DNA of 64,000 bases. It comes from Methylobacterium sp. SyP6R. Its GTDB lineage: Bacteria > Pseudomonadota > Alphaproteobacteria > Rhizobiales > Beijerinckiaceae. Positions 1-15,080 of this stretch are shown here, one piece after another (the first letter of the stretch is position 1; every line of letters begins with the position of its first letter). A model generated the notes under the pieces. It was not told the DNA's origin and ran no database searches. It saw only the letters and a program-made list of their open reading frames with translations. The stretch is taken from contig NZ_JAAQRC020000001.1 in the NCBI RefSeq assembly GCF_019216885.1, positions 1,922,001-1,986,000 on the forward strand, read 5' to 3'. The position numbers were made by a program, and so were the translations under genes.

Positions 1-581
1 CTCGGCTGTTCGGCGTCTCGACCACGGCGGTGCGGGAATACCTGACCCGGTTCAGCCAGTTCGGGCTCCTGAAGCGGCGCGAGAACAGCGGCTGGATCTT
101 CGCCGGGGTGACACCGGACTTCGCCGCCGAGATCTACGAGATCCGCGAGATGTTCGAGCTACGCTCGGCCCGCCGCTTCGTCGAGCTGGCGCCGGATTCA
201 CCGGCCTGGGCCGAGCTCGCCGCGATCGAGCGCGAGCATCACGCGCTGCTCGCCGAGATCGATGCGCGCCATCGCGACTTCTCGCGCCTCGACGAGCGGT
301 TGCACCGGCTGATCCTCGACGCCTCGCGCAACCGTTTCATCCGCGATTTCTACGACGTGATCTCGATCATCTTCCACTACCATTACCAGTGGGACAAATC
401 GGACGAGAAGGAGCGCCACCGCGTCGCCCTGGGCGAGCACCTGGACTACATCGCCGCCCTGCGCTCCCGCGACCTGCGCCAGATCGACCAGACCTGCCGG
501 GTGCATCTGCGTACCGCTCGGGCGACCCTGCTGCGCTCGATCGCCGTCGGCCCGCTCGGTGGTGTGCCGGCGCGGGGGTGA
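1..581 (+). CDS. GntR-family (FCD-type) transcriptional regulator, 5' end missing
   Basis: The reading frame is open from base 3 and ends at 581, so the start lies outside the window. The first visible residues (RLFGVSTTAVREYL) are the second half of a GntR winged helix-turn-helix. They are followed by a long all-helical domain of FCD type, with an EIYEIREMFELRSARR helix and later His residues (ERLHRLI, FHYHY) that commonly bind a metal or ligand in FCD regulators. Such proteins are usually dimeric DNA-binding repressors that respond to small carboxylic acids or sugars. The ligand and targets cannot be told here because the divergent or upstream neighbour is outside the window. The family call is firm; the exact subfamily is not. 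Confidence 0.85.
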   Translation, partial: RLFGVSTTAVREYLTRFSQFGLLKRRENSGWIFAGVTPDFAAEIYEIREMFELRSARRFVELAPDSPAWAELAAIEREHHALLAEIDARHRDFSRLDERLHRLILDASRNRFIRDFYDVISIIFHYHYQWDKSDEKERHRVALGEHLDYIAALRSRDLRQIDQTCRVHLRTARATLLRSIAVGPLGGVPARG

Positions 582-1153
582 GAGCCGGATGCCGCCGAGG
601 CGCCTCTCTCCGCCACAGGGCTGTCGGGGAAAAGGAATGGCGCGGGATTTTCTCCTCTCCCCGTGGGCGGGGAGAGGGCTGATCCCCCGTCCAGGGGGGG
701 CAGCGAGCCCGTGCGGCGAAATGCAGGTTCGCCGCGAGGATGAGGGGGAGTTTCCGGAGGAGCCTCACCCATCGAGACCCCCTCCCCGCCCGCGGGAAGA
801 GCAGGGGACCTGCGCATCTTCCTTTCCCCAAAACAGCGTCGCGGCCTCCGGATGACGCATCGCGACTGCGGACCATGCCGGACTGGTCGAATATCGACCG
901 GCCGCGGCCACAGATCTTTGTAATCTTCATCGACCGAGCAACGCGGGAGGTATGCGGTATGACGTGGATATGATCAGATTGACGGCCGCTCATCATCACC
1001 CATCCGGTCACGTTGTCCTGTGCAGTCGAGCCCCGTGAGGCTTCGCGTCCGTAGGTAAGGCTTCGTTCACCCTGTTGCGCGAAGAAGAGAGCGACCGTTC
1101 GCGGCGTCCTCGCCAGGAAGGCGCCCGGCGCTCCCCTACCCTTCGGAGATCAG
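582..1153. other. Gene-free interval with a short palindrome
   Basis: No convincing coding region was found in this 572-bp gap. It contains a perfect 10-bp inverted repeat with a 4-base loop (654-677, CCTCTCCCCG/CGGGGAGAGG) and a weaker copy of the same pyrimidine/purine motif near 780-800. These resemble the larger inverted repeat at 30075-30225. The last 100 bases precede the TolC-type gene and presumably hold its promoter; no confident -35/-10 pair was identified. Confidence 0.5.
654..677. repeat. Short perfect palindrome, CCTCTCCCCG family
   Basis: Perfect 10-bp arms around a TGGG loop are seen directly. There is no T-tract on either side, so a simple intrinsic terminator is unlikely. 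The same CCCTCTCCC/GGGAGAGGG theme recurs at 30.1-30.2 kb, which suggests a dispersed intergenic palindrome of the kind common in high-GC Rhizobiales. Confidence 0.55.
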
Positions 1154-2632
1154 ATGCCGGTGCGGCGCGCGACGTTGGAGAGGCTGGGCTGCGTCCTGGC
1201 GATCCTGGCGATCCCCGCCGGCGCGGCCCGGGCGCAGAGCCTCGAGGAGGCCTCCGCCGCCGCGCTCGACTCGAGCTTCGTGCTGCGGGCCGAGCGCGCG
1301 CGCCAGGACGGCGCCGAGGAGCGCCTGCGCGGCGCCATCGACGCCTTCATGCCCACCGTCGCCTTCACGGCCGACCGGCCGCTGCGGAGCCGCATCACCT
1401 ATTCGCCGGAAGCCGCACCTCCGACGGTCGGGCTCGACGCGACGCCGCGGCGGGCGCCGACCGTGGTCGGGCTCACCGCGAACCTGCCGCTCTTCGACGG
1501 GTTCCAGCGCTGGAACGGCTACCAGACGGCGAAGACGCTGGCCGAATCGGGCCGGCTGCTGCTGATCGGCCGGCGCCAGCAGGTGCTGCTCGATACCGCC
1601 ATCGCCTATATCGCGGTGTTGCGCGACACCCGGATCCTCGCCGCCCGCGACGCGCAACTCGTCGCGATCCAGCGCATCGCCGCCTTCACCGACAAGCAGT
1701 TCGAGCTCAACGACGCCACCCGCACCGACGTGGCCTTGGCCCGCTCCCGCGTTCAGGAGGCCGAGGCCCTGCGGATCCGCGCCCAGGCCGATCTCACCGC
1801 GTCCCGGCTCGACTTCACCCGGCTGACCCGGATGGCGCCGGAGCGGATGCCGCCGCCGCGCCTGCCCGACCGGCTGCCGCGCAGCGCCGACGCCTATGCC
1901 GAACTGGTGCGGACGGCCAATCCCGACATCGCCGCGTCCCAGCTCGAGGCGGAGGCCGCGGGCTACCAGGCCAAGGCCGCGGTCGCGGACCTCCTGCCGA
2001 AGGTCAACCTTCAATTCTCGAAGATCGCGCAGATCGGCTACAGCCCGGTCCTCGACCGGATCACCGACACCACCACCCGGGTGGTCGCGACCGTGCCGAT
2101 CTACACGCCGGGCAGCCTGCCGCGGATCGGCGAGGCCTCGGCCCTGGCGCGCCAGCGCGGCTACGAGGCGCAGGACAAGGAACTCGCCACCCTCACCTCG
2201 GCCCGCATCGCCTTCGCCCGGCGCCAGGCCACCGCCGAGCAATACACCCAGCTGGTCGCCCGGATCCGCGAGCTGCGCGAGACGATGCGGGGCTTCGGGA
2301 TCGAGCGGGCGGCGGGCTTTCGCACCGTCCTCGACGAGTTGAACATCCGCGGCGAACTCGCCAATGCCGAGGTGGCGGCGGAGATCGTCCTGAACGAGCG
2401 CGACGGGCAGGCGCTGCAACTGGCGGCGGCCGCGGCCCAGCTCGACGCCGCGCCCGGCGGGCCTCCCTCTCGGCGGTTCGAGTCGGTCGCTCCCCCGCCG
2501 CCGTCGGCTTTGCGCCGTTCGCTCGCAGGGGCGCCCGTCGAGAAGGCCCCGGCCTTGCGCGGCAGCGGGGCGCCGGCGGTGACGCCGACGCCTGTTCTGC
2601 GCGTGTCGCGGGCTGAGGAGGATCATCGTTGA
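1154..2632 (+). CDS. TolC-family outer-membrane efflux/secretion channel
   Basis: A 492-residue protein with a Sec signal peptide (hydrophobic core about residues 11-22, likely cleavage after GAARA at 27). It is followed by the two long helical repeats of the TolC/OEP family; typical signatures are NLPLFDG near 113-119 and paired heptad-rich helices around 145-235 and 335-410. Family members form trimeric outer-membrane/periplasmic tunnels that dock onto an HlyD-type adaptor and an inner-membrane transporter. No other transporter lies beside it on this strand. The HlyD and C39-ABC genes 3.3-4.5 kb away on the other strand lack their own outer-membrane component, so this is the natural partner, by inference. 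The C-terminal 60 residues are Pro/Ala-rich and probably disordered. The ATG at 1154 gives a complete signal peptide. Confidence 0.88.
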   Translation: MPVRRATLERLGCVLAILAIPAGAARAQSLEEASAAALDSSFVLRAERARQDGAEERLRGAIDAFMPTVAFTADRPLRSRITYSPEAAPPTVGLDATPRRAPTVVGLTANLPLFDGFQRWNGYQTAKTLAESGRLLLIGRRQQVLLDTAIAYIAVLRDTRILAARDAQLVAIQRIAAFTDKQFELNDATRTDVALARSRVQEAEALRIRAQADLTASRLDFTRLTRMAPERMPPPRLPDRLPRSADAYAELVRTANPDIAASQLEAEAAGYQAKAAVADLLPKVNLQFSKIAQIGYSPVLDRITDTTTRVVATVPIYTPGSLPRIGEASALARQRGYEAQDKELATLTSARIAFARRQATAEQYTQLVARIRELRETMRGFGIERAAGFRTVLDELNIRGELANAEVAAEIVLNERDGQALQLAAAAAQLDAAPGGPPSRRFESVAPPPPSALRRSLAGAPVEKAPALRGSGAPAVTPTPVLRVSRAEEDHR

Positions 2633-2778
2633 CGGCGTAATGTCCTCGCCTCAAAGTGATCGGCCGCCTCGCACAGGAATTGCCGCTCTCCGCATTATTG
2701 CGAGGCCCTTTAGCAACGCCCGAATTTCACAATCATAATGATCAATTTTTATCTTATTTATATGATATTTCTATCATA

Positions 2779-3384
2779 TTAGCGAATTTTTAGATCATCG
2801 ATCCATCGATGACCTGGATGTAATTGTTTAATCAATGAACTCAATAGCTGATTTTCCTTCATGGAAAATTTTTGAACGAAAAAATCGAAATCACGCTGAT
2901 CTTTTTTTCTGCAATGCACTGCTTTGAACAAGAGGACATGTGTTGGCGCAAGGTATGGAATGCCTGAGCTGCTCACACGAACAGCATCAGATCGGGCCAT
3001 CCGTATGGTCCGGTCGCGCTTGTAAATCCATAGATTCGGCGTTCCTGGCTCCATCATCATGTCCACTCGCCAGCAACCTTGCTGCAGGTCTCCTCCCCAA
3101 AGCTGCCAGACATCGCTCGGGACCGCGGCGGACGGAGGAAGATATTCGACCGTTCCATCTTTGACGGTGAAAAAGTCTAATTCATGCAAAATAGAACGAA
3201 AATAAGCTACATCCTTGCGAAGGACAACAAACTCCAGATCCTCGTGCTCGCGCGTTTGCTCGCCATGCCAGACGTCGAGAGCCCATCCGCCTGCGACGTA
3301 CCATGGGAAGGCTGCGTTTCGGAGACGTTGTCCAAGCTCGTCGGGCGACCATGCATCCCAAGCGTCGTCGTCGAGAGGACTCAT
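2779..3384 (-). CDS. Nucleotidyltransferase of the aminoglycoside-adenylyltransferase type
   Basis: A 201-residue protein with the ANT(2'')-like signature VAGGWALDVWHGEQTREHEDLEF near its N-terminus. Gly-Gly plus the acidic residues after TREHED form the usual metal/NTP site. An in-frame ATG lies seven codons upstream (3405), but the ATG at 3384 is preceded by GGAG at a 7-base distance and is preferred. Family members transfer a nucleotide to aminoglycosides; many genomic relatives have no proven substrate, so resistance is not claimed. The 3' half and downstream sequence (2700-2900) are strikingly A+T-rich for this genome and codon use is atypical. It sits between the TolC gene and the peptide-export operon with no operon partner, which is consistent with recent acquisition. 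Confidence 0.75.
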   Translation of the reverse strand: MSPLDDDAWDAWSPDELGQRLRNAAFPWYVAGGWALDVWHGEQTREHEDLEFVVLRKDVAYFRSILHELDFFTVKDGTVEYLPPSAAVPSDVWQLWGGDLQQGCWRVDMMMEPGTPNLWIYKRDRTIRMARSDAVRVSSSGIPYLAPTHVLLFKAVHCRKKDQRDFDFFVQKFSMKENQLLSSLIKQLHPGHRWIDDLKIR

Positions 3385-3405
3385 CGAAATCTCCGCAGGG
3401 AGCAT

Positions 3406-3746
3406 TCGCGAAAGCCGAAAATCGATACGCGCTGCGACGCCTTACCGCAACATCTGCGCCCTTGAGGGGCAATCCATAGGGCAGATGTAACGCTCTCGCT
3501 CTTCACGTCTGCAGTCCATCATCACGCAAACATCCGAAATCGGAGCTTGCACCGGCAATTGGTTTCAAGCCGCTCTTACGCGGTCAAAACGGTCGAGTTT
3601 CGATCCCGCAGACAGTCATAGCGATGCGGCTACTGGCCATCAAAGAGGTTCCGGAATGCAGCGTAGGACCGTGATATGATGCGAGCGTAACAAAACGATC
3701 GCTTGGTTCACCACTCGCCATGCATGGGATGAGCGGCGCCCGCCCC
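3406..3746. other. Gene-free interval between nucleotidyltransferase and ABC transporter
   Basis: About 340 bp without a supported gene. It holds the presumed promoter of the leftward nucleotidyltransferase gene and the region downstream of the export operon. No clear hairpin followed by a T-tract could be identified for the operon's end. Confidence 0.4.
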
Positions 3747-5900
3747 TCACGCCGCCTCCGTCTCCGGAGCCCCCGGCTTTGCCGGCGGGCGCGGATCCTC
3801 GGTCAGCCGCCCGTTCTCGATCCGAAACACCCGGTCGACCTGGTCGAGCAGGCGCTCGGAATGGGTGATGAAGACCTTGGCGGCCTTCACGCCCTTCAGG
3901 CTCTCGACGAGGGCCGTCTCGGTCGCCGGATCGAGATTCGCCGTCACCTCGTCGAGGAGCATCAGCCGCGGCCGGCGGCAGATGGCCCGCGCCAGGAGCA
4001 GGCGGCGGCGCTGGCCGGTGGAGAGCACGCTCCCCTCCTCCGAGACGTGGGTGGCGTAGCCCTGCGGCAGCCGCTCGATCTCCTCGCGCAAGGACACCCG
4101 GGTCAGGGCCGCCTCCATCTCGGCATGCGACACGGCGGGATCGAACAGCGACAGGTTGTCGGCGACAGTGCCGGCAAACAGCCCGTCATCGGCGAAGACG
4201 ACGCCGAGATTGGCCCGGTACTCGCGCTTGCCGAACTGGCCGATCGGCGCGCCGTCGATGGTGACCGAGCCGGCGGCGGGCTCGGTGAGGCTGGCGAGAA
4301 TCCGCATCAAGGACGACTTGCCGGATCCGGAGGCGCCGACGATCGCGATCGTCTCGCAGCGGCCGACATCGATGGTCAGCGAGGCCCCGGTCAGGATCGG
4401 CTCGTCGCCGCGGCCGAAGCGGATGGTCACGTTCTCGACCTTCACCTCCTTGCGGATCGCCCGGTGGAAGGTCGCCTCGTGCAGGCCCTCCTCCGGCGCC
4501 TGGCCGATCACATCGTCGAGGCGGGCGACATGGACCTTGAGGGCGGCGAGCTGGAGCAGGCTGGTCGTCAGGTGGTTGATGCGGTCGAAGAAGTCGGTGC
4601 GCAGCGCGATGAAGGCGTAGAGCGTGCCGATCGTCAGCGTGTTCTTGATGACGCCGGTGATGCCGAGATAGAGCGTCGCCACGGTACTGATTGCGATGAC
4701 GACATGCATCAGGAACTCGGCGTCGAGCCCGGCCTTCTTCGCCCGGAAATCGAGATTGGCGAAGCGCGCGAAGCTCTCGAACCAGTTCATGGCAAAGAGT
4801 TCGGTGCTGTTATGCGCCTTCAGGCTGCCGATGCGCTGCAACCCGTCGATCAGGCTCGCCTGCTCCTGCGAGCGCGCCTCGAGCGAGCCGGCGGTGGCGC
4901 GGTTGAGGGTCGGGAAGGTGACGAAGCGCATCGCCAGCACGGCGGCGAGGGTCGCGAGCACGATCGACGCCATGGCGGGCGAGTAATAGTACATCAGCCC
5001 GACGAGCAGGAACGACGTGCCGATATCGGCAAACGACGTGACCAGGCCGCCGACCATGAAGTTGCGGATCGTATCGATCGACTGGATGCGGGTGACGAAA
5101 TCGCCCGGATGGCGCAGCTCGAAATAGCTCAAGGGCAGGCGCAGCGCGTGGCCGACGACGTTGCGGGTGAACTGGAGCTGGAGCAACGTCGAGGCGCGCA
5201 AGGCGATGTAGCCGCGCAGCCACTGCCCGAACGCCTCGAACAGCATCATCAGGACGAGGCCGGCGGCCAGCATCTGCATCAGGTCGAGATCGACCTGCGG
5301 GATCACCACGTCGAGCGCGATCTGGAGCAGCACCGGGGTCGTGAGGCCGAGCAGCGAGATCGCCACCGAGACCAGCGTGATCTGCCACACCGTGCCGCCG
5401 AGGCCCCGGGCGCTGCGCAGGATGTCGAACAGCTTGAGCCGGTCGCCGACCTTGATCGCGCGGAAATCCATCCGGGGGGCGAATTCGAGCACGACGCCGC
5501 CGAACAGCCGCTCCATGTCGGCCCGCTCGTAGATGCGCAGGCCGAATTCGGGGTCCTGGATGTGATACTTCCCGCGAGAAATCTTCTCCAGCACCACGAA
5601 GTGGTTGCCGCGCCAGTGCAGGATCGCCGGCAAGGCCACCTGCTCCAGCTCGGTCACGCCGTCGAGGGCGTAGCCGCTGGCGTCCAGGTCGAGGCTGTCG
5701 GCGAGCTGCACGATGCTCGCGAGGGTCATGCCGTTGCGCGAGAGCGGGAACAGAGCCCGTAGATAAGCGAGGTCGATGTCGTGGCGGTGGTAGTTCGCCA
5801 CCATCGCGAGCGCGGCCAACCCGCACTCGTTGGCCTCGTTCTGGAGGATCGAGCGCACCCGGCGCTTGGGCGCGAGCGCACGCTTGAGCCAGTCGGTCAT
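3747..5900 (-). CDS. C39-peptidase-containing ABC transporter (peptide processing and export)
   Basis: A 717-residue PCAT. The N-terminal C39 domain (about 1-140) has the full catalytic set: Q20 (oxyanion), C26 in NECGLAAL, H100 in WRGNHFVVLE and D116 in IQDPE. A six-helix ABC exporter membrane domain occupies about 165-450. The nucleotide-binding domain has Walker A GASGSGKSS at 522, signature LSTGQ at 626 (one change from LSGGQ), Walker B LMLLDE ending at 651 and H-loop His680. Proteins of this type cut leaders after a double glycine and export the core. The gene is last in a leftward operon whose first four genes encode double-glycine peptides, and it follows the HlyD gene by 4 bp, so the substrates are very probably those peptides. 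Confidence 0.95.
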   Translation of the reverse strand: MTDWLKRALAPKRRVRSILQNEANECGLAALAMVANYHRHDIDLAYLRALFPLSRNGMTLASIVQLADSLDLDASGYALDGVTELEQVALPAILHWRGNHFVVLEKISRGKYHIQDPEFGLRIYERADMERLFGGVVLEFAPRMDFRAIKVGDRLKLFDILRSARGLGGTVWQITLVSVAISLLGLTTPVLLQIALDVVIPQVDLDLMQMLAAGLVLMMLFEAFGQWLRGYIALRASTLLQLQFTRNVVGHALRLPLSYFELRHPGDFVTRIQSIDTIRNFMVGGLVTSFADIGTSFLLVGLMYYYSPAMASIVLATLAAVLAMRFVTFPTLNRATAGSLEARSQEQASLIDGLQRIGSLKAHNSTELFAMNWFESFARFANLDFRAKKAGLDAEFLMHVVIAISTVATLYLGITGVIKNTLTIGTLYAFIALRTDFFDRINHLTTSLLQLAALKVHVARLDDVIGQAPEEGLHEATFHRAIRKEVKVENVTIRFGRGDEPILTGASLTIDVGRCETIAIVGASGSGKSSLMRILASLTEPAAGSVTIDGAPIGQFGKREYRANLGVVFADDGLFAGTVADNLSLFDPAVSHAEMEAALTRVSLREEIERLPQGYATHVSEEGSVLSTGQRRRLLLARAICRRPRLMLLDEVTANLDPATETALVESLKGVKAAKVFITHSERLLDQVDRVFRIENGRLTEDPRPPAKPGAPETEAA

Positions 5901-5904
5901 CGGA

Positions 5905-7185
5905 TCATCCTCTTCCGCGCATCGCCCGGATCGGATCGAGCATCCAGTCGATCAGGCGGCGGCGCTCGACCACGATGTCGGCCGAGAGCGTCGAGCCGAT
6001 GCGGATCGGCTCGTCGACCCCGTAGGCGCGCATGGTGCGCGAATCGGGCCGCACCTCGACCCGGTAGACGGATTGCCGCGAAGCCGCCGCGCCCGCCGCA
6101 TCGCCGGTGCCGTCATCGGCCGAGGCCAGCATCGGGTTGCGCAAGGGCGTGCCGGAGATCACCGTGATCGTCCCCTTGGCGATGCCGAAGGTCTTGAACG
6201 GGAAGGCGTCGTATTTCAGCACCACCTCCTGGCCGACCTTGGCGAGCCCGATGGCGCGGGCCGGCACCTCCAGCACCACCAGCGGATCGGCCCTGGTATC
6301 GCCGAGGATCGCCACGACCTGGTCGGCAGTGACCGAATCGCCGGGCTGGACGTAGAGGCCGGCGACCTGGCCGTCGGTGGGCGCCACCACGTCGATGCGC
6401 GACTGGGCGCCGAGTGCGGTGATCTGCGCCTCGATGGCGCTCAACTCGTTGCGGGTGGTGGCGAGCTGGGCCGCCTTCTCGGTGTCGCCGGTGCGCTGCG
6501 CCCGCAGGCGCTCGGATGTGCTCTGCCGCAGCTCGGCCCGGCGGGCGCGCAACTCGGCGATCTGGCGGGCATAGTCGAGGGCGGCGCGGCGCTGGCCGTT
6601 GAGGGTCTCGCGGGTGGCGTAGCCTTGGCGCAGGTAGGCCTCGACGCGGGAGACCATCTCCTCCTGCTGGGCCAATCCCTCCTTGAGGGTGCGCTCCTGC
6701 TCGTCGAGGGCGCGCAAGACCGCCGTCACGTTGCGCTCGGTCTCGCTGCGGTCGCCGCGGGTCGACTCGAGATAGACCGAGAGGCGCGCCTCCTCGGCGG
6801 CAAGCCCGGTGCGCCGTTCCTGCAGGCTGCGGAGCGTCGCCCCGACGGTCGAGACGCCGCCGGTCGTCTGCTCACGCAGCTGGATCTGCATCAGGCGCTG
6901 GCCGCGCTTGACGGTGTCACCCTGCTTGACGGCGATGTCCCGCACGATGCCGGCGGCCTGGGCGTCGAGGCGGGTGAGGCCCGACGCCGCCGAGACGTAG
7001 CCGCGCACCGATTCGGAGCGGGCGAGGCGGCCGAGGAACAGGCCGGCGACGATCGCCACGATGATGGCGCCGAAGAACCACGCCATCCAGACGCTGCCGC
7101 GGTCGTGCTGGAGGTGGACCGTGCCGGTGAGCCGCCGACGCTGGAAACTGGCCTCCGCGGAGGGAGGCGCCGCGGGTTCGCTCAT
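5905..7185 (-). CDS. HlyD-family periplasmic adaptor of the peptide exporter
   Basis: A 426-residue membrane-fusion protein. It has a short cytoplasmic N-terminus, one membrane helix at about 33-54 (MAWFFGAIIVAIVAGLFLG), and a biotinyl-lipoyl half-motif (AQAAGIVRDIAVKQGDTVKRGQ). A long coiled-coil hairpin follows at about 110-260, then the second lipoyl half (TDGQVAGLYVQPGDSV) and a beta-barrel domain. It bridges the inner-membrane C39-ABC protein and an outer-membrane TolC channel. The start lies 21 bp after the acyltransferase stop and its stop is 4 bp before the ABC gene, so the three are co-transcribed. The C-terminal RRRLIDWMLDPIR tail resembles adaptors of NHLM/colicin V-type exporters. 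Confidence 0.93.
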   Translation of the reverse strand: MSEPAAPPSAEASFQRRRLTGTVHLQHDRGSVWMAWFFGAIIVAIVAGLFLGRLARSESVRGYVSAASGLTRLDAQAAGIVRDIAVKQGDTVKRGQRLMQIQLREQTTGGVSTVGATLRSLQERRTGLAAEEARLSVYLESTRGDRSETERNVTAVLRALDEQERTLKEGLAQQEEMVSRVEAYLRQGYATRETLNGQRRAALDYARQIAELRARRAELRQSTSERLRAQRTGDTEKAAQLATTRNELSAIEAQITALGAQSRIDVVAPTDGQVAGLYVQPGDSVTADQVVAILGDTRADPLVVLEVPARAIGLAKVGQEVVLKYDAFPFKTFGIAKGTITVISGTPLRNPMLASADDGTGDAAGAAASRQSVYRVEVRPDSRTMRAYGVDEPIRIGSTLSADIVVERRRLIDWMLDPIRAMRGRG

Positions 7186-7206
7186 CGACCGTCCGCTCGC
7201 GAGGCC

Positions 7207-8151
7207 TTACGCCGCGAGGGTCTGCGGCGCCTCCCCGCCTGCCGGAGAGTTGTCCTGCACCCTGGCAGAGGAGGGTAAATAATCGGCGAGCATCGGCCAC
7301 AGGTGCCACTGCTCGGGCCTCGCCGCAATCGCGGCCTGGATGTGCCTACGCATGATGCCGGCCACCTGCGCCCGCTCCTCGGGCGCGTTCCCCCGCACCT
7401 CGAAGGGCTGGCCGAGGCGGACCGTGTCGCCGGTATCGTCCATGGTGGTGGCGACCGGCACCACGGTGGCGCCGGTGAGCCGGGCCAGGGTGTCGGTGCC
7501 GAAGGCGAAGCGGAAGGGCAGCCCGAACATCGGCATTTCGGCCGGCGCGCCGTAGGACGGATCGAGGTCGCAGAACACCACGATCACCGCGCCCTTCTGG
7601 GCGAAGCGCACCGCGGAGAGGAAGTCGGACCGGTTGCCGACATTCAGGAAGCGCACGTCGACATCGACCTCGCGCAGGCGCTCGATCACCTCCGTCTCCA
7701 TCGCCATGTCGTCGCGCTGGCGCAGGACCAGCATCGGCCGGCCGGGGAAGTGGCGCAGCATCAGGGCGGCGAGGCCGACCACGTAGGCGCCCATGTGGAG
7801 GGGGGCCAGGATCACCGGCCGGCCGGTGGCGGCGACGCGCGCCATCGCCGCCGGATCGGTGACGTTCACCCGGTCGATGTCGCGCCGGATGGCCGCGACC
7901 GGGCGCTTGTGCATGGCGCACCACTCGATCTCGGTGGCGGCGTCGTGGTGGACGGCCTCGCGCGACAGGCGCAGGGCCTCGCGGCGCGGCAGGCGCAGGA
8001 CGCTCTCGAAGGTCGCGGCGAAGCCGTCACCCTTGTTCCGGTCAAGGAGGTGGCGGCTGGCGACGAGGGCGCGCAGGGCGCGCCGGCGCCAGGCGAGCGG
8101 CAGGCTCGCGAGGCGGGCATAGGTCCAGGGGATGTGCGGGGCGTTGCTCAT
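7207..8151 (-). CDS. LpxL/HtrB-like (lysophospholipid) acyltransferase in the peptide operon
   Basis: A 314-residue protein. The start at 8151 is preferred over a longer frame (8202) because GAGGA lies 11 bases upstream and the homologous part begins there. The layout matches lipid A lauroyl/myristoyl acyltransferases: an N-terminal helical region, the block RPVILAPLHMGAY with His119, a later CDLDPSYG segment and LARLTGATVVPV. In the canonical HX4(D/E) motif an acidic residue follows the His by five positions; here that position is Val, so catalysis may differ or be lost. There is no clear N-terminal membrane anchor. It lies 66 bp after the last peptide gene and 21 bp before hlyD. Acylation of the exported peptides, or of a lipid needed for export, is an inference only. 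Confidence 0.8.
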   Translation of the reverse strand: MSNAPHIPWTYARLASLPLAWRRRALRALVASRHLLDRNKGDGFAATFESVLRLPRREALRLSREAVHHDAATEIEWCAMHKRPVAAIRRDIDRVNVTDPAAMARVAATGRPVILAPLHMGAYVVGLAALMLRHFPGRPMLVLRQRDDMAMETEVIERLREVDVDVRFLNVGNRSDFLSAVRFAQKGAVIVVFCDLDPSYGAPAEMPMFGLPFRFAFGTDTLARLTGATVVPVATTMDDTGDTVRLGQPFEVRGNAPEERAQVAGIMRRHIQAAIAARPEQWHLWPMLADYLPSSARVQDNSPAGGEAPQTLAA

Positions 8152-8217
8152 CGGAACTGTCGTCCTCGGAACTCTGTCCGTCGGGGCATGGCCCCGCACC
8201 ATTCCACTGTCAGCCGA

Positions 8218-8355
8218 TCAGCACTTCTTGGACTTGGCGCTGCCGCAGGTCGGAGCCGGGGGGCACGGCGGCGGGCAGGCCGGGGGGCCGCAGACGGGGG
8301 CGCAGAGGGTGCCGCCGGCGACGGTGCCGAGGGTGGCGAGGTCGAGCTTCTTCAT
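8218..8355 (-). CDS. Double-glycine Cys/Pro-rich precursor peptide A (45 aa)
   Basis: Encodes leader MKKLDLATLGTVAGG followed by a 30-residue core, TLCAPVCGPPAC, then PPPC, PPAPTC and GSAKSKKC. The core has six Cys (18, 22, 27, 31, 37, 45) and eleven Pro. The leader fits the double-glycine consensus: Leu at -12 and -7, Val at -4, Gly-Gly at -2/-1. AGGAGA lies 6 bases before the ATG. It is the last of four tandem copies; the stop of copy B is 56 bp upstream and the acyltransferase starts 66 bp downstream. A Gly replaces the second Cys of the CC pair seen in copies C and D, giving an even number of thiols. Confidence 0.88.
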   Translation of the reverse strand: MKKLDLATLGTVAGGTLCAPVCGPPACPPPCPPAPTCGSAKSKKC

Positions 8356-8411
8356 GGTGTCTCTCCTGTCTGATGCGAAGTGTCGGTGAGGTCAGGCTGC
8401 CGCTTGGGCGA

Positions 8412-8558
8412 TCAGCACTTCTTGGACTTGCTGCTGCCGCAGGTCGGGGCCGGGGGGCAGGCCGGGGCGCAGGCGCCGACCGACACGCCGATGGAGATGC
8501 CGCCGCAGAGGGTGCCGCCAGCCACGGTGCCGAGGGTCTTGAGGTCGAGCTTCTTCAT
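8412..8558 (-). CDS. Double-glycine precursor peptide B (48 aa, divergent core)
   Basis: The leader is MKKLDLKTLGTVAGG. The 33-residue core differs most from its siblings: after TLC it has a glycine/valine/serine stretch, GGISIGVSVGAC, in place of the APVCCPPAC block. It then rejoins the family with APACPPAPTC and GSSKSKKC. It has five Cys (18, 30, 34, 40, 48). The hydrophobic insert is reminiscent of class II bacteriocin cores, which the other three copies lack. AGGAGAG is positioned just upstream of the ATG. It is third in transcription order. Confidence 0.87.
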   Translation of the reverse strand: MKKLDLKTLGTVAGGTLCGGISIGVSVGACAPACPPAPTCGSSKSKKC

Positions 8559-8615
8559 GATCGTCTCTCCTGTCAGTCTTTTGTCGTCGTCGAGATCAGG
8601 CTGCCGCCGGTGCGA

Positions 8616-8756
8616 TCAGCACTTCTTGGACTTGGCGCTGCCGCAGGTCGGAGCCGGGGGGCACGGGGGCGGCGGGCAGGCCGGGGGGCAGCAGACGGGG
8701 GCGCAGATCGTGCCGCCGGCGACGGTGCCGAGGGTGGCGAGGTCGAGCTTCTTCAT
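8616..8756 (-). CDS. Double-glycine Cys/Pro-rich precursor peptide C (46 aa)
   Basis: The leader is identical to copy A (MKKLDLATLGTVAGG). The 31-residue core is TICAPVCCPPAC, PPPPC, PPAPTC, GSAKSKKC, with seven Cys at 18, 22, 23, 27, 32, 38 and 46. A run of four prolines separates Cys27 and Cys32. AGGAAAG precedes the ATG. The nucleotide sequence of the last 35 codons is nearly the same as in copies A and D, indicating recent tandem duplication. The spacers on either side (55 and 57 bp) also share sequence. Confidence 0.88.
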   Translation of the reverse strand: MKKLDLATLGTVAGGTICAPVCCPPACPPPPCPPAPTCGSAKSKKC

Positions 8757-8811
8757 GGTGGTCTTTCCTGTCGGTCTTCGTATCGTCGAGATCAGTCTAT
8801 CGCTGAGGCGA

Positions 8812-8952
8812 TCAGCACTTCTTGGACTTGGCGCTGCCGCAGGTGGGGGCCGGGGGGCAGGCGGGCGGCGGGCAGGCCGGGGGGCAGCAGACGGGCGCGC
8901 AGAGGGTGCCGCCAGCGACGGTGCCGAGGGTCTTCAGGTCGAGGGTCTTCAT
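8812..8952 (-). CDS. Double-glycine Cys/Pro-rich precursor peptide D (46 aa), first gene of the operon
   Basis: The leader is MKTLDLKTLGTVAGG (Thr at position 3) and the core is TLCAPVCCPPAC, PPPAC, PPAPTC, GSAKSKKC, with seven Cys. The frame stays open upstream to 9048, giving a possible 78-residue product. The ATG at 8952 is chosen because GAGGA lies 8 bases before it and because the product then matches the other three in length and leader. As the operon's first gene it should be the most abundantly transcribed. The promoter must lie in 8953-9496. Confidence 0.86.
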   Translation of the reverse strand: MKTLDLKTLGTVAGGTLCAPVCCPPACPPPACPPAPTCGSAKSKKC

Positions 8953-9496
8953 CGGGGCTGTCCTCAAGTCCGGGACCGGTCTCGCGTCCCGTTCGCAGTC
9001 TTGGGATGCCAGATGTTTCAAAACGTGTCGAGACGGACAGTCGAACACTTAGCCTGCTGTTAACCAAAGCGATTCCCGAAAACGGATCAGCAACAAGATC
9101 TTACGCAGCGACTCGAGAGATTGCGTACGTAATTTCGCTGGGGAAGGGCTGTGCATAGCGAGCCGGCGATGGGCCGCTCGCCAGGTCGGTAGAACGTTCC
9201 TGTCGCGGGGCGATGCTCCGGGAGAGTGTTCCGGCCGAGGAATCCGAGTTCGGGGATAATCTTGCCCTTGCCAAGACTCCTCCCAAGACTCCGCCCGCCC
9301 CGGCGGGGACTGGAGATTTCCACGACGGCGAGCGTCGGAAGGCGCGACGGCGTGGGGACCGGACTGCGCGGCGCGCCGCGCTGGCAATACAGATCAAGTC
9401 GAGGGATGGGCGGCACAGATCGGCGGGCCTGGCGGATCTGCGGGGTTGCCGGCTCTCTTGCCGGATCCGCGGCGCGGTGCGGCCTGTGGCGGTGGC
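8953..9496. promoter_or_regulatory. Upstream region of the peptide operon
   Basis: This 544-bp interval lies between the first peptide gene and the 3' end of the ornithine cyclodeaminase gene; both neighbours read leftward. No credible gene was found. It must contain the leftward promoter of the peptide operon. The part from 9000 to 9135 is relatively A+T-rich and includes an imperfect 12-bp palindrome, TTGCGTACGTAA (9121-9132), that could be an operator. I could not assign -35/-10 boxes confidently. Confidence 0.4.
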
Positions 9497-10549
9497 TCAG
9501 GCGACGAGGCGCGGTGGGGCCGCCCGCAGCAGCATGCCGAACAGGTCGCGCGGGTCGTCCGGATCGGCGAGGAGGTCGAGCTCCTCGTAGTAGGGGTGCT
9601 CGGCCAGAAGATCGCGCACGGTGCGCAAGGCGGAAAAATCCTCGATCGCGAACCCGACCGAGTCGAACACCGTGACCTGGCGCGCATCGTGCCGCCCGGG
9701 CGCCAGCCCGGCGAGGACCCGCCACAGCTCGGTGACCGGATGGTCGGGCGCCAGTTGCTGGATCTCGCACTCGATGCGGGTCTGCGGCTCGTACTCGACG
9801 AAGAGGGCGGCGCGGGCGAGCACCTCCGGCGCCAGCTCGGTCTTGCCCGGGCAGTCGCCGCCGACGGCGTTGATGTGCATCCCCTCCCCGACCAGGTTGT
9901 CGCTGAGGATCACGGCGTTGCGCTTGTCCGCCGTTACCGTGGTGACGATGTCGGCGCCGCGAACCGCCTCCTCGGTGCTGCCGCAGGCCGTGAGGTCGAA
10001 GCCGAGGCTTGCGAGGTTGCGCAGGCACTTCGCGGTCGCCGCCGGGTCGATGTCGTAGAGGCGTAAGACATCGACCCCGAGGAGCGCCCGGAAGGCCAGG
10101 GCCTGGAACTCGGCCTGGGCGCCGTTGCCGATCAGCGCCATGGTGCGCGACCCCGGCCGCGCGAGGGCTCGCGCGGCGAGCGCCGAGGTGGCGGCGGTGC
10201 GCAGGGCCGTCAGCAGGGTCATCTCGGTGATCAGCACCGGGTAGCCGTTGCCGACATCGGCCAGCACCCCGAAGGCGGTGACGGTCTGGCGCCCGCCGGC
10301 GGCGTTCTTCGGGTGGCCGTTGACGTATTTGAAGCCGTAGGTCTGCCCGTCGCTGGTCGGCATCAGCTCGATGACGCCGTCAGAACTGTGGGCGGCGATC
10401 CGGGGCGTCTTGTGAAAGGCCTCCCAGCGGGAGAAGTCCTCCGCGACGGCCGCGGCGAGGCGGACCAGCATCGCTTCGATCCCGACCGCGTGGACGAGGC
10501 GCATCATGTTGTCGACGCTGACGAATGGGACGATGTTGAGGGCCGTCAT
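9497..10549 (-). CDS. Ornithine cyclodeaminase / mu-crystallin family protein
   Basis: A 350-residue protein starting at MTALNIVPFVSVDNM; the frame extends 26 codons further, but that part has no family resemblance. It shows the OCD fold: GFKYVNGHP with the catalytic-region Lys near 92, a Rossmann nucleotide-binding motif ALIGNGAQAEFQ and an INAVGGDCPGKTEL segment with the usual Asp. Ornithine cyclodeaminases convert L-ornithine to L-proline and ammonia with bound NAD. It is followed, in the same orientation, after about 200 bp by arginase (10752-11690, upstream in transcription), so together they form an arginine to ornithine to proline route. The divergent Lrp/AsnC gene is the likely regulator. 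Confidence 0.9.
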   Translation of the reverse strand: MTALNIVPFVSVDNMMRLVHAVGIEAMLVRLAAAVAEDFSRWEAFHKTPRIAAHSSDGVIELMPTSDGQTYGFKYVNGHPKNAAGGRQTVTAFGVLADVGNGYPVLITEMTLLTALRTAATSALAARALARPGSRTMALIGNGAQAEFQALAFRALLGVDVLRLYDIDPAATAKCLRNLASLGFDLTACGSTEEAVRGADIVTTVTADKRNAVILSDNLVGEGMHINAVGGDCPGKTELAPEVLARAALFVEYEPQTRIECEIQQLAPDHPVTELWRVLAGLAPGRHDARQVTVFDSVGFAIEDFSALRTVRDLLAEHPYYEELDLLADPDDPRDLFGMLLRAAPPRLVA

Positions 10550-10682
10550 CTGAGCAAATCCCGCGAAAGTGGTTGTCGATCTTGCGAAAGGAATTGGTGA
10601 AAAAGCAAAATATGGGCTGGCTTGCATCGATTTCCTAGGGCGTTGCGCAATCGTACTACAATATTGATGTGTTATTGATCAT

Positions 10683-10745
10683 TGGTTTTGTCGAATTTTC
10701 TGCGACGAAACGGTATCCACTTCGCCGGAAATTGCTCCAAATCAA
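10683..10745. repeat. Dispersed Rhizobiales palindrome (GAAGTGGATACCG type), copy 1
   Basis: Read on the minus strand, this contains GGCGAAGTGGATACCG, then TTTCGTCGCAGAAAAT, closely matching the element at 57385-57450. The two halves (TTTCCGRCGAA and TTCGTCGYAGAAA) form an imperfect hairpin. It lies between the arginase stop and the ornithine cyclodeaminase start, where it could influence read-through or mRNA decay. Confidence 0.7.
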
Positions 10746-10751
10746 GTTGTC

Positions 10752-11690
10752 CTAGAAGCTCCGGGTCGGTCGGTCGAGGATGCGGCGGCCGAGCAGGCTG
10801 GCGGCGAGATCGGTCATCAGCAGGGCGGTGCGGCCGCGCTCGTCGAGGAAGGGGTTGAGTTCCACGAGGTCGAGGCTGCGCACCAGGCCGGAATCGTGCA
10901 GCAGCTCCATGATCAGGTGCGCTTCCCGGAAGGTGGCCCCGCCCGGCACCGTGGTGCCGACGCCGGGCGCGATGCCGGGATCGAGGAAGTCGACGTCGAG
11001 GCTGACATGGAGCAGGCCGTCGGCGCCCGCGACCTCGTGCAGGAAGTTGCGCAAGGGGGCGGCGATGCCGGTCTCGTCGATGTCGCGCATGTCGTGCACC
11101 CGCGTGCCGCTGTCGCGCAGGACCGCGCGCTCCGCCGGATCGACGCTGCGCAGGCCGATCATGCAGATCCGCGCCGGATCGAGCGCCGCTTCCAGGGGCG
11201 GGAAATAGCCCTCGAAGCCCGGCCGCCCGGTGAGATAGGCCAGCGGCACGCCGTGCAGGTTGCCGCTCGCCGTGGTGTCGAGGGTGTGGAGGTCGGCATG
11301 GGCGTCGAGCCAGAGCACGAAGAGCGGCCGCCCCTCCGCCCGCGCCCGTAAGGACATGCCCGCCACGGTGCCGGCCGAGAGGCTGTGGTCGCCGCCGAGG
11401 AAGATCGGCCGCGCCTCGGCGCTGTGCCGGAAGGCGGCCTCGGTGAGCGCCCGCGTCCAGCACGCCGTCTCGGCGAGGTGGTGGATCGCCGGATTTGGAT
11501 GGGCCGGGCCTGCGAAGGGCGCGGGCGCGACGGTGCCCGCATCCTCGACCGGGATGCCGAGATCGCGGATCGCTTGCGGCAGGCCTGCCGCCCGGTAGGC
11601 GCTCGGCCCCATGTCGCAGCCGAGGCGGTTGGTGCCCGATTGCACCGGCGCGCCCACCAGGACGCATCGTTCAGGATGTCTGCCGACCAC
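10752..11690 (-). CDS. rocF: Arginase
   Basis: A 312-residue protein of the ureohydrolase family. It has all the manganese-binding motifs: GGDHS (about 98-102), DAHADLHT (about 128-135) with the NLHG substrate loop, and SLDVDFLDP (about 228-236). The SGTNRLGCDMGPSAYR N-terminus is typical of true arginases rather than agmatinases. It hydrolyses L-arginine to ornithine and urea, feeding the downstream ornithine cyclodeaminase. It starts 131 bp from the divergent Lrp/AsnC gene, an arrangement well known for Lrp-type control of arginine catabolism. Confidence 0.93.
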   Translation of the reverse strand: MVGRHPERCVLVGAPVQSGTNRLGCDMGPSAYRAAGLPQAIRDLGIPVEDAGTVAPAPFAGPAHPNPAIHHLAETACWTRALTEAAFRHSAEARPIFLGGDHSLSAGTVAGMSLRARAEGRPLFVLWLDAHADLHTLDTTASGNLHGVPLAYLTGRPGFEGYFPPLEAALDPARICMIGLRSVDPAERAVLRDSGTRVHDMRDIDETGIAAPLRNFLHEVAGADGLLHVSLDVDFLDPGIAPGVGTTVPGGATFREAHLIMELLHDSGLVRSLDLVELNPFLDERGRTALLMTDLAASLLGRRILDRPTRSF

Positions 11691-11821
11691 GCTTGCGCCC
11701 CACCGATCGCATCGATCAGCACGACGGTAGCAAGCGGATGCGTCACTTCGAATACGGGAAGCCGGTCGATTTTTCAGTCGGATTGCGCAATCTGGCAGGT
11801 GACAATGCGCAGAGTGTCGGA

Positions 11822-12259
11822 ATGGACGCCCTCGACCAGAACCTGATCACCCTGCTGCGGCACGATTGCCGGCGCCCGGTCTCGGAGTTGGCCGCCATCC
11901 TCAAGGTGTCGCGGGCCACGGTGCGGGCGCGGCTCGACCGGCTCGAGCGCGACGGCGAGATCATCGGCTATACGGTGGTGCTGCGGGCCGATAGCCAGCC
12001 GGCGGCGGTACGGGCGATCACCCTGATCGCCGTCGAGGGACGCAAGACCGGCGAGGTGATCGACGCCCTCAAGGGCTTCGCCGCGATCACCTCGGTCCAC
12101 ACGACGGTCGGCACCTGGGACATCGTCGTGGAAGTCTCCGCCGGCAGCCTGCCGGAACTCGACGAATTGTTGCGGAGGGTGCGCCTGCTGCCGGGCGTGA
12201 CCACCTCGGAGACGCATCTGCTCCTGTCGACGCCGCGGTCTGCGCGGGCGCGGTTGTAG
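11822..12259 (+). CDS. Lrp/AsnC-family transcriptional regulator
   Basis: 145 residues from the ATG at 11822; the open frame runs further upstream, but homology begins at MDALDQNLITLLRHD. There is an N-terminal winged HTH (about 1-55, with LAAILKVSRATVRARLDRLERDGEIIGY) and a C-terminal RAM domain (about 65-140). These proteins assemble as octamers and respond to amino acids. Divergence from arginase points to arginine or ornithine as effector and to autoregulation from the shared 131-bp intergenic region; this is inference from context. Confidence 0.92.
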   Translation: MDALDQNLITLLRHDCRRPVSELAAILKVSRATVRARLDRLERDGEIIGYTVVLRADSQPAAVRAITLIAVEGRKTGEVIDALKGFAAITSVHTTVGTWDIVVEVSAGSLPELDELLRRVRLLPGVTTSETHLLLSTPRSARARL

Positions 12260-12305
12260 GACGTTCCAGCACAGACGACTGAACTTCATCGACTCCCACC
12301 CGCGC

Positions 12306-12402
12306 CCTCATCCCGAGGTGCGAACGAAGCGAGCCTCGAAGGAGGGCTCCAGAGAGCGCAGAGACTTCTGAAACCCTCCTTCGCGGCACCTCAGGATGGG
12401 GT
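12306..12402. repeat. Dispersed inverted repeat (CTCGAAGGAGGGCTCC type), copy 1
   Basis: An imperfect palindrome of about 97 bp. CCTCATCCCGAGGTGCG at the left faces GCACCTCAGGATGGGG at the right, and an inner pair CCTCGAAGGAGGGCT faces ACCCTCCTTCGCGG. The same element, better conserved, lies at 24577-24695. It is flanked by the ends of two convergent genes. Confidence 0.75.
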
Positions 12403-12440
12403 TGCGGATAGGAGTGTGTGCGAGGACTCAGCCTCGCCCC

Positions 12441-12797
12441 TCAGACCGGCCGCTGCAGCTTGCAGCTGTCGATGGCGCCGAGCGCCTTGGCGCGGGCCGA
12501 ATCGTTGAAGTAGCCGGTGGTGCGGTAGGCCGCGATCTCGGAGGCGTCGAGCGCGCGCAGGGTGGTCTTCGCGTAGCAGCCGCAGGGGCGCTCGAAGCTG
12601 GTCTCGGCGGCGTTCTGCATCCGGGCCTGGATCACCGCGCAGGAGCGGCGCACCCGCGCCTCGAGCTCCGATGTCGGCGCGGTGCGCAGGGCCGGATCGG
12701 GCTGGTAGGCCTCGAACTGCGACGAGGACGCGCCGGCAAGGGCCGCGCTGGCGCCGATCGCGAGGAGGCCGGCGGCAAGGAAGGTGCGGAGACGCAT
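12441..12797 (-). CDS. Small secreted Cys-containing protein of unknown function
   Basis: 118 residues from the ATG at 12797. A clear Sec signal peptide (TFLAAGLLAIGASAALAGA) is followed by a short mature domain of about 95 residues with four Cys (RRSCAVIQ, PCGCYAK, DSCKLQ), probably forming disulfides in the periplasm. The frame extends 23 codons upstream, but those residues are not signal-like. No family is recognised with certainty. It lies 108 bp downstream of the molybdopterin oxidoreductase stop in the same orientation and could be a co-transcribed accessory, although nothing in it suggests cofactor binding. Confidence 0.7.
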   Translation of the reverse strand: MRLRTFLAAGLLAIGASAALAGASSSQFEAYQPDPALRTAPTSELEARVRRSCAVIQARMQNAAETSFERPCGCYAKTTLRALDASEIAAYRTTGYFNDSARAKALGAIDSCKLQRPV

Positions 12798-12905
12798 GGC
12801 AATGAGGTCCGTTGGGCTGCTTGTCGTCAAGCTCGACCGTTGGACGCCGAAACTCCCCGCCCGCACAAGGGCGGGCGGGCCACACCGCGGAGATTATAGG
12901 CCGCG

Positions 12906-15011
12906 TTACTGCGGCAGGGCCGCGATGGCGACCCGGTTGTCGTGGAAGGCGGCGCCGCCGAACGGGGCCGGCGCGTCGGCTCCCGTCAGGGTGTTGATGC
13001 CGCGCCCGTCCGGGTAGGCATCGTTGGGCCAGATCGATTCGGCGATCAGCACCCCACGGCGCAGGCCCGAAAACAGCGTTGCCCGCAGCGTCACGGCGCC
13101 ACGCTCGTTGGAGAGCCGCACCCACGCCCCCTCCCCGATCCCGAGCGGCCCGGCATCCTCCGGGTGGATCATCACCGTCGGGTGCCGCTCCTTGGCGAGC
13201 GAGGTCGGGGTCTCGGTGAAGCTCGAATTGAGGAAGTTGCGCGCCGGGCTGGTGGCGAGGCGGAACGGATGCGCCTCCGTCGCCACCATCAGGGGTGCCT
13301 CCCAATGGTCGGGGAGCGGCGGCATCGCCGGCCCGCGCGGCCCATCCTGCGCCACCGGCACCTTGCTCCAGTCGGGCCGGAAGCGGAAGCGCCGGTCGGG
13401 ATAGGCGAAGCCGTCGAGGAAATGGGCGCGCTCGTAAGCAGGCTGCACGTCGAGGAAGCCGTCTCCCTCCAACTCGGCGAGGCTGCCGCGGCGCGAGGCC
13501 TTCAGCGTGGCGTCGATCAACTCGCGCGGGCTCATGGCGAAGCCCGGATGCTCGGCGCCGAGGCGCTCGGCGAGGCTCCCGATCACCTCGTGGTTCGAGC
13601 GGCACGAGGCCGGCGGGTCGATGCGCTTCAAGCCGAGCTGGATGTGCTGCTGGCCGCCGCCGGTATAGAGGTCGTCGTGTTCCAGGAACATCGTGGCCGG
13701 GAGGACCAGATCGGCCATCCGGGCGGTCTCGGTCATGAACTGCTCGTGGACGCAGACGAACAGGTCCTCGCGGGCAAATCCCCGCTTCACCAGCTCCTGC
13801 TCGGGGGCGACCGAGACCGGGTTGGTGTTCTGGATCAGCATCGCGGTCACCGGCGGGCCGTGGCGCAACGCCTCCGGGTCGCCGGTGAGCACCCGGCCGA
13901 TCTGCGACTGGTCGAGCATCCGGGTGCCGGGCCGGGCAGCATCCAGACCCTCGATCAGCCGCTTGTTGAGGCCGAACACGCCGCTGTTCGAGTGGAAGGC
14001 GCCGCCGCCGCGATGCTGCCAGGCGCCGGTCACCGCCGGGATGCAGAGCGCCGCATGCATGTTGACGGCGCCGTTGCGGCTGCGGGCGAATCCGTAGCCG
14101 AGGCGGAAGAAGGTGTTCTTCGTCTCGCCGACGAGGTGGGCGAAACGCTCGATCTCCTCGACCGTGAGGCCGGTGATCGCGGCGGCCCAGGCGGGGTCGC
14201 GGGTCTTCAGGTGGGCGTCCAGCTCCTCCGGGCAGTCGGTGTAGCGGGCCATGTAGTCGCGGTCGGCCAGGCCGTCGCGAAACAGCACGTGCATCACCGC
14301 GCAGGCGAGCGCCCCGTCGGTGCCCGGCCGCAGCAGCAGGGCGAGATCGGCCTGTTTCATGGTCGGGTTGTCGTAGATGTCGACGACCACGACTTTGGCA
14401 CCGCGATTCTTGCGGGCGGCCTGGACGTGGGTCATCAGGTTGACCTGGGTATGCACCGGGTTGGTGCCCCAGATCACCACGCAGTCGCTCTCGGCGATCT
14501 CGCGCGGATCGACCCCGGCGAGGCGGCCGGTGCCGGCGATGTAGCCCGACCAGGCCAGCGTGGTGCAGATGGTGGAGAACTGGCCGGAATAGCCCTTGGC
14601 GTGGCGCAGGCGGTTGATGCCGTCGCGCATCACCAGCCCCATCGTGCCGGCATAATAATACGGCCAGACCGCCTCCGGCCCGTGCGCGGCCTCCGCCTTG
14701 AGGAATTCTTGCGCCACACGATCGAGCGCCTCGTCCCAGCCGATGGCTGCGAACTCGCCCGAGCCTTTTCGCCCGGTGCGGATGAGCGGCCGGGTCAGCC
14801 GGTCGGGATGGTGGATGCGCTCGGCGTAGCGGGCGACCTTGGCGCAGACGACGCCCGCCGTGTAGCTGTGGCGCGGGTTGCCGCGCACCCGCCCGATCGT
14901 GGCGCCGTCGATCACCTCGACCTCGAGGGCGCAGACCGACGGGCAGTCGTGCGGGCAGGTGGAGGTCGTCCGCTCGATCCGTGGCTGCCCCGTCACTGTC
15001 CGGTCTCCCAT
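12906..15011 (-). CDS. Molybdopterin-dependent oxidoreductase (4Fe-4S, DMSO-reductase superfamily)
   Basis: About 700 residues. The N-terminal iron-sulfur motif CPHDCPSVC, with the fourth Cys in GVVCAK, binds a 4Fe-4S cluster. Next come the MGD-binding blocks (VVIWGTNPVHTQ, VVVVDIYDNPTMKQADLALLLRPGTD in two stretches) and the C-terminal molydopterin dinucleotide-binding domain (NSSFTETPTSLAKER, VRLSNERG). No twin-arginine leader, so cytoplasmic. The substrate is not predictable. The ATG at 15011 sits directly on the U-tract of the ndk terminator. A GTG at 14996, with GGGAG 8 bases before it, also retains the whole Fe-S motif and may be the real start. Confidence 0.9.
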   Translation of the reverse strand: MGDRTVTGQPRIERTTSTCPHDCPSVCALEVEVIDGATIGRVRGNPRHSYTAGVVCAKVARYAERIHHPDRLTRPLIRTGRKGSGEFAAIGWDEALDRVAQEFLKAEAAHGPEAVWPYYYAGTMGLVMRDGINRLRHAKGYSGQFSTICTTLAWSGYIAGTGRLAGVDPREIAESDCVVIWGTNPVHTQVNLMTHVQAARKNRGAKVVVVDIYDNPTMKQADLALLLRPGTDGALACAVMHVLFRDGLADRDYMARYTDCPEELDAHLKTRDPAWAAAITGLTVEEIERFAHLVGETKNTFFRLGYGFARSRNGAVNMHAALCIPAVTGAWQHRGGGAFHSNSGVFGLNKRLIEGLDAARPGTRMLDQSQIGRVLTGDPEALRHGPPVTAMLIQNTNPVSVAPEQELVKRGFAREDLFVCVHEQFMTETARMADLVLPATMFLEHDDLYTGGGQQHIQLGLKRIDPPASCRSNHEVIGSLAERLGAEHPGFAMSPRELIDATLKASRRGSLAELEGDGFLDVQPAYERAHFLDGFAYPDRRFRFRPDWSKVPVAQDGPRGPAMPPLPDHWEAPLMVATEAHPFRLATSPARNFLNSSFTETPTSLAKERHPTVMIHPEDAGPLGIGEGAWVRLSNERGAVTLRATLFSGLRRGVLIAESIWPNDAYPDGRGINTLTGADAPAPFGGAAFHDNRVAIAALPQ

Positions 15012-15012
15012 G

Positions 15013-15045
15013 AAAAAAGCCCCCGCCGCTTTCGCGGCGAGGGCT
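15013..15045 (-). terminator. Intrinsic terminator downstream of ndk
   Basis: Reading leftward, AGCCCTCGCCGC is followed by a GAAA loop, GCGGCGGGGGCT and then six T. The stem is long and almost perfect. It ends two bases before the possible ATG of the oxidoreductase gene, so that gene either uses read-through or has a start and promoter arrangement that avoids the hairpin. Confidence 0.88.
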
Positions 15046-15080
15046 CTCAACCTATCGGCGTTTCCCTGGCGGGGAAACCG

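Follow-up and report, generated by a model that had tools for sequence, protein, structure and literature searches.

The window analysed here (64,000 nucleotides of Methylobacterium sp. SyP6R, contig NZ_JAAQRC020000001.1, positions 1,922,001 to 1,986,000) contains a minus-strand operon in which four genes for short double-glycine peptides are followed by genes for an acyltransferase, an HlyD-family adaptor and a peptidase-containing ABC exporter; a TolC-family gene lies on the opposite strand. The features, in window positions, are:

8812..8952, minus strand: precursor peptide 1, 46 amino acids, with a 15-residue double-glycine leader, a 7-Cys core and a KSKKC end
8616..8756, minus strand: precursor peptide 2, 46 amino acids, with a 7-Cys core and a KSKKC end
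8412..8558, minus strand: precursor peptide 3, 48 amino acids, with a 5-Cys core that includes a Gly/Ile/Val-rich stretch, and a KSKKC end
8218..8355, minus strand: precursor peptide 4, 45 amino acids, with a 6-Cys core and a KSKKC end
7207..8151, minus strand: LpxL/PatA-type acyltransferase (PF03279), 314 amino acids, candidate peptide acyltransferase
5905..7185, minus strand: HlyD-family periplasmic adaptor, 426 amino acids (domain match)
3747..5900, minus strand: C39 peptidase-containing ABC exporter, 717 amino acids (Pfam match)
1154..2632, plus strand: TolC-family outer-membrane channel, likely the third part of the exporter (Pfam match)
8953..9260, minus strand: conserved upstream region, presumed promoter (alignment of 11 stretches)
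2779..3405, minus strand: nucleotidyltransferase-like gene (PF10706, 33.8 bits, cut-off 21)

An earlier reading of the same DNA (the sequence-only reading) had described four tandem minus-strand precursors sharing a 15-residue leader, and the open reading frames (ORFs), their coordinates and the residues at -12, -7 and -4 bear this out: all four leaders end in VAGG, with Leu at -12, Leu at -7 and Val at -4. The cores contain 7, 7, 5 and 6 Cys, respectively, within the five to seven claimed. The KSKKC end, described as invariant, is so among the four window peptides and gives way in relatives to KSRVC, KKGC, KDKS, GKCS and GKSR, among others. None of the four precursors has a Pfam or NCBIfam match at E up to 1 (these scans took in eight window proteins), and none of the 55 proteins retrieved by a profile search with a 15-sequence precursor alignment has a Pfam domain; every organism shown among the 55 is a Methylobacterium or Methylorubrum, and one protein is labelled 'bacteriocin-like protein' by its source. 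The contention that no described class has so short a leader does not survive: class II microcin leaders are given as 15–18 residues in the available text of PMC10233263, so that 15 residues is normal for that class and the argument for novelty from leader length falls.

The acyltransferase, HlyD and C39-ABC genes follow the precursors on the same strand, with the TolC homologue on the other, as had been proposed, and the C39 domain of the exporter holds Q20, C26, H100 and D116, which we take to be its intact catalytic site. Assignment to the NHLP bacteriocin exporters was rejected (NHLM_micro_ABC1 438.7 bits, cut-off 853.3). Among 111 genomes of the genus, precursor 2 had a match in 14 (at 0.001), the acyltransferase in 27 (at 1e-15) and the exporter in 27 (at 1e-150); the latter two sets are identical, and 14 of the 14 genomes with a peptide match fall within them. 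The system is real and occurs in roughly one in four of the genus genomes searched, and the gene association agrees with the predicted dedicated processing and export by the C39-ABC protein.

Synteny was likewise confirmed, with HlyD and C39-ABC genes after the acyltransferase in 29 of the 30 loci fetched (L-numbers denote fetched stretches and G-numbers genomes): those of the 27 genus genomes, one from another genus of the family (L095, G220) and one from another family of the order (L113, G587). The thirtieth locus (L114, from G111) encodes an acyltransferase of 21% identity and served as an outgroup only; neither HlyD nor C39-ABC was matched in its stretch. In 25 of the 29 loci the fetched stretch includes a TolC match; those of L093, L095, L097 and L107, the last a short contig, have none. 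The TolC proteins near these loci probably serve this exporter. By eye, an alpha/beta-hydrolase-like ORF was seen near the TolC gene in two loci (L103:4505-5338 and L113:1161-2015). Beyond the genus, the acyltransferase was matched in 9 of 298 genomes of the family sample (at 1e-6; SyP6R itself, six others of the genus, G220 and the distant G111), 5 of 397 of the order sample and 2 of 385 of the class sample (both at 1e-15, and both including SyP6R and G111). At most seven (family), five (order) and five (class) candidates were scored per genome, so misses are possible and rarity outside the genus may be overstated.

The leader pattern was scanned for in 38 records, among them the window trimmed to 16 kb, and matched 71 times; 60 of these matches lie upstream of an acyltransferase gene on its strand. 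These cis precursors come from 25 of the 27 genus loci together with L095 and L113; of the remaining two, the precursor in G036 (L092) is broken by an 88-N gap, and the precursor matches of G109 lie at the edge of a different contig (L053). The other matches comprise six orphans (L009, L057-L061), four on contigs without an acyltransferase in the fetched stretch (L045, L053) and one that is clearly spurious (L101). The leader is 15 residues long in 60 of 60 cis precursors, and the cores vary widely, with at least five types: Cys/Pro-rich (the window type), His/Lys-rich (L093, L102, L103, L104), Gly/Leu-rich (L098, L100, L101), Asn/Gly-rich (L093, L102) and Gly/Cys-containing (L095, L096, L113). 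The Cys-rich core from which disulfide-bonded and metal-binding peptides had been envisaged is one of these types, and some relatives' cores contain no Cys. The tails are basic, with Lys or Arg within the last six residues in all 60; the final residue is Cys in 41, Ser in 17 and Arg in two (Cys or Ser in 58 of 60). When the cores were reduced to 14 that are dissimilar to one another, a terminal Cys or Ser was present in 13, against 3.1 expected from composition, although this selection removes relatedness only partly.

Fourteen precursor pairs, 12 of them of equal length, were compared for a coding signal. The synonymous rate exceeded the non-synonymous rate in 10 of these 12 (only slightly within L049 and L052); one pair was identical, and that of L056 was reversed (three non-synonymous changes, no synonymous ones). 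A fifth precursor of SyP6R lies far from the operon (C1:6301625-6301762; L009:5626-5766) and has an 8-Cys core and a KSRVC end; orphans also occur in five other genomes (L057-L061). All six genomes with orphans carry the system, and this confinement suggests that orphan precursors may be exported in trans. Three weaker peptide matches were also seen in SyP6R (L006-L008, E 0.01 to 0.4). Among the other loci, L055 has six near-identical precursors in tandem in a single operon (L055:5853-6977), and L044 has a precursor copy that is split or frame-shifted by decay or assembly error (L044:5905-6234).

Conservation extends over the 300 bases that precede precursor 1 in 11 aligned stretches (mean column identity 74%). 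The inverted repeat TACGCA-N14-TGCGTA found upstream of this gene in the window is exact in seven of the 11, and every one of the 11 keeps its left arm; it is a candidate operator. A riboswitch (window positions 1-16000 had no Rfam match at the gathering score) and a plasmid origin (3747-8952 had no megablast match in the plasmid collection) were considered and rejected. The nucleotidyltransferase-like gene between the TolC and C39-ABC genes is probably unrelated to the system.

The system is of interest more for its acyltransferase than for the Cys-rich core. The start chosen for the gene gives an N-terminus that matches relatives, and the protein scores 41.6 against PF03279 (gathering cut-off 22.3) and matches the PatA/LpxM fold, rows ranking below GPAT/PlsC in the fold comparison being treated as background. 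Against PDB chain sequences there was no match at 0.01, and up to E 10 there were only three PatA sequences (E about 0.1). H119 and D195 are conserved, and V124 occupies the acid position of the HX4D motif. Scores against NCBIfam models of lipid A acyltransferases fall far below the cut-offs (26.8 against 297.8, and 11.6 against 336.05), and a housekeeping lipid A role was rejected because the genome has another PF03279 gene that is a stronger match. The statement that no classical enzyme modifying ribosomally synthesized and post-translationally modified peptides (RiPPs) is present is literally correct but probably misleading, since the acyltransferase, present in the same 27 genomes as the exporter and accompanied in some relatives by acyl-supply genes, is a candidate modifying enzyme. 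Neither a GNAT nor a lanthionine synthetase matched among the eight window proteins scanned. The acyltransferase gene of L106 is split or frame-shifted, through decay or assembly error. A class III aminotransferase gene between precursors and acyltransferase was seen in two of nine loci with ORFs listed (L096:9750-11201, domain-scanned, and L113:10638-12014, called aminotransferase-like).

The acyl-supply genes encode an acyl carrier protein (ACP) and a FabF-like ketosynthase, which lie near the operon in eight of the 29 loci (L094, L095, L096, L103, L104, L105, L106 and L113), with a MaoC-type dehydratase in all of these except L095; the other 21, the window included, have no match to them. 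In L113, precursors, the aminotransferase-like gene, acyltransferase, HlyD, C39-ABC, ACP, ketosynthase and MaoC genes share one strand, and the last three overlap; the ketosynthase there is split or frame-shifted, again by decay or assembly error. With the L104 ketosynthase as query (1e-100), 11 of 111 genus genomes had a match, 11 of 11 being carriers of the system and none of them among the 84 non-carriers (hypergeometric 2.8e-8, shared ancestry ignored). The ketosynthase gene is beside the operon in six of these genomes and elsewhere in five (G021, G023, G042, G058 and G072), where it sits on a separate contig or, for G042, at a distance of about 1.6 Mb; each of the five remote copies is beside an ACP gene and three also have a MaoC gene. 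The remote copy in G058 is close to a TolC homologue, and the operon of that genome has no TolC match nearby. The acyltransferase tree places the seven ACP-bearing rows that were used together on one side of a modestly supported branch (80/71; recovered in 77% of bootstrap trees), and gain and loss of the ACP genes appear indistinguishable there.

These gene associations are consistent with a class II microcin-like export operon with probable built-in lipidation, to which we assign a probability of about 0.5. Each precursor would be made with its double-glycine leader of 15 residues. The LpxL/PatA-type acyltransferase, acting in the cytoplasm, would take a fatty acyl group off an acyl carrier and attach it to a core side chain, most likely that of a Lys, a Ser or the terminal Cys/Ser of the conserved basic tail. 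Once the core was acylated, the C39 domain would cut after Gly-Gly, the ABC-HlyD-TolC channel would export a small cationic lipopeptide, and the target would depend on the variable core, as it does in bacteriocins. Directly observed are the order and co-occurrence of the genes, the conserved leader and tail, the exporter residues, and the fold and conserved His and Asp of the acyltransferase. Homology to established C39-ABC exporters gives good support to cleavage after Gly-Gly and to export; fatty acylation of the precursor, which we infer from gene association, is less certain than export. Acylation of a side chain is preferred to that of the N-terminus because the mature N-terminus would be absent until the C39 cut during export, and the tail appears the best acceptor because it is the only part of the core common to all types and offers Lys together with a terminal thiol or hydroxyl. 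The variable cores favour inter-bacterial antagonism as the use of the product, which is a guess.

Several observations weigh against built-in lipidation. Sixteen of the 27 carriers, SyP6R included, have no ketosynthase match at 1e-100 and would have to draw on a housekeeping acyl donor. ACP matches occur in 7 of 248 family genomes (at 1e-6), three of which (G202, G216, G278) have no acyltransferase match; the ACP family is not exclusive to the system. All 28 acyltransferases counted keep the His of HX4D and have V, A or P in place of its acid, and activity is not certain because of this loss; PatA D131A keeps 37% activity. The proposed correspondence of D195 to PatA E200 is read from alignment ranges and numbering. 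A lipid could serve as the acyl acceptor. Reading the operon ORFs by eye, with no systematic test made, revealed no recognisable immunity gene, which weakens the bacteriocin reading.

The strongest alternative, which we consider possible though doubtful, is that the peptides would be unmodified and class II microcin-like (disulfide-bonded if Cys-rich), and the acyltransferase would protect the producer by altering its own lipids, such as lipid A. Leader and exporter agree with class II microcins, the PF03279 enzymes known to us, PatA among them, acylate lipids, and a lipid-modifying enzyme could stand in for the immunity gene that was not recognised separately. Against this alternative, the enzyme falls far short of the lipid A cut-offs (e.g. 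26.8 against 297.8), and the operon-linked ACP, ketosynthase and dehydratase genes of some relatives, together with the nucleophile-bearing tail, are explained more naturally by peptide acylation. Less probable still, and in our view improbable, are peptide signals or surface-fibre or coat peptides without a killing role. The tandem near-identical copies (six in L055) would suit them, as would the Gly-rich character of some cores, given that the Cdz glycine-zipper proteins of Caulobacter remain on the cell surface (PMC5380434, available text); however, the cores of a structural coat would not usually differ so much between relatives, neither a receptor nor a regulator was recognised among the operon genes, and Cdz itself kills. 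Secreted peptides that chelate metals extracellularly are very unlikely, despite the five to seven Cys of the window cores and the His-rich cores of L093, L102, L103 and L104, because the cores of L098, L100 and L101 and the Asn/Gly cores (L093, L102) contain no more than one Cys and no more than one His.

Returning to the lipidated microcin-like operon, we tentatively advance, at somewhat short of an even chance, its fuller form: a new alphaproteobacterial class of ribosomal lipopeptides in which an LpxL/PatA-fold enzyme, fed in some lineages by its own ACP-ketosynthase-dehydratase set, would put a special fatty acid on the Lys/Ser/Cys tail of microcin-like precursors with freely exchangeable cores, before C39 cleavage and TolC export. 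If acylation were shown, this would be a new class of lipidated RiPP and a bacterial lipopeptide system of a new kind. Peptide lipidation would gain a second, unrelated fold (LpxL/PatA beside GNAT), microcin-type export and fatty-acid supply would be united in one operon, and leader and tail would make up a system tolerant of very different cores. The operon would also offer a testable model in which one precursor is recognised by both a C39 exporter and an acyltransferase, and might yield small cationic lipopeptides.

The literature searched (including that on Cdz and acyltransferase chemistry), in which subscription papers were thinly covered, contained no account of this system. The acyltransferase resembles PatA, LpxM and LpxL in fold, in its conserved catalytic His and in a later acid, and differs from them in the lost HX4D acid, the distance from lipid A cut-offs and an operon shared with exported peptides. 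As in Caulobacter Cdz, a type I exporter serves small exported proteins in an alphaproteobacterium, and some relatives' cores are Gly-rich; unlike the 45- to 48-residue window precursors, CdzC and CdzD have 86 and 84 residues and act as a pair with the immunity protein CdzI, a counterpart of which was not recognised by eye here, and the Cdz account, as far as its available text goes, includes no acyltransferase (PMC5380434). Like the lipidated RiPPs (microvionin/lipolanthines, goadvionins, lipoavitides and selidamides), the system joins a ribosomal precursor to an acyltransferase gene, lipidation here being predicted. The lipidated RiPPs named in PMC13060382 are lanthipeptides whose acylation is carried out by GNAT enzymes; the paper also notes GNAT clusters that lack a lanthionine synthetase, and at least one lipidated RiPP involves fatty acid synthases (from a title cited there); the present system departs from the GNAT type in its LpxL/PatA fold, its 15-residue leader and its lack of a lanthionine enzyme. 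The host outside the Enterobacteriaceae, the tandem precursors, the acyltransferase between precursors and exporter, and the lack of a recognised immunity gene distinguish it from class II microcins, although it shares with the MccV type, in the available text of PMC10233263 and PMC9746304, a double-glycine leader (15 residues here, 15–18 there), a C39-ABC exporter with membrane-fusion protein and TolC, and a variable small core. Two features of class II microcins, the 15- to 18-residue double-glycine leader and the C39-ABC, membrane-fusion and TolC proteins, are present.

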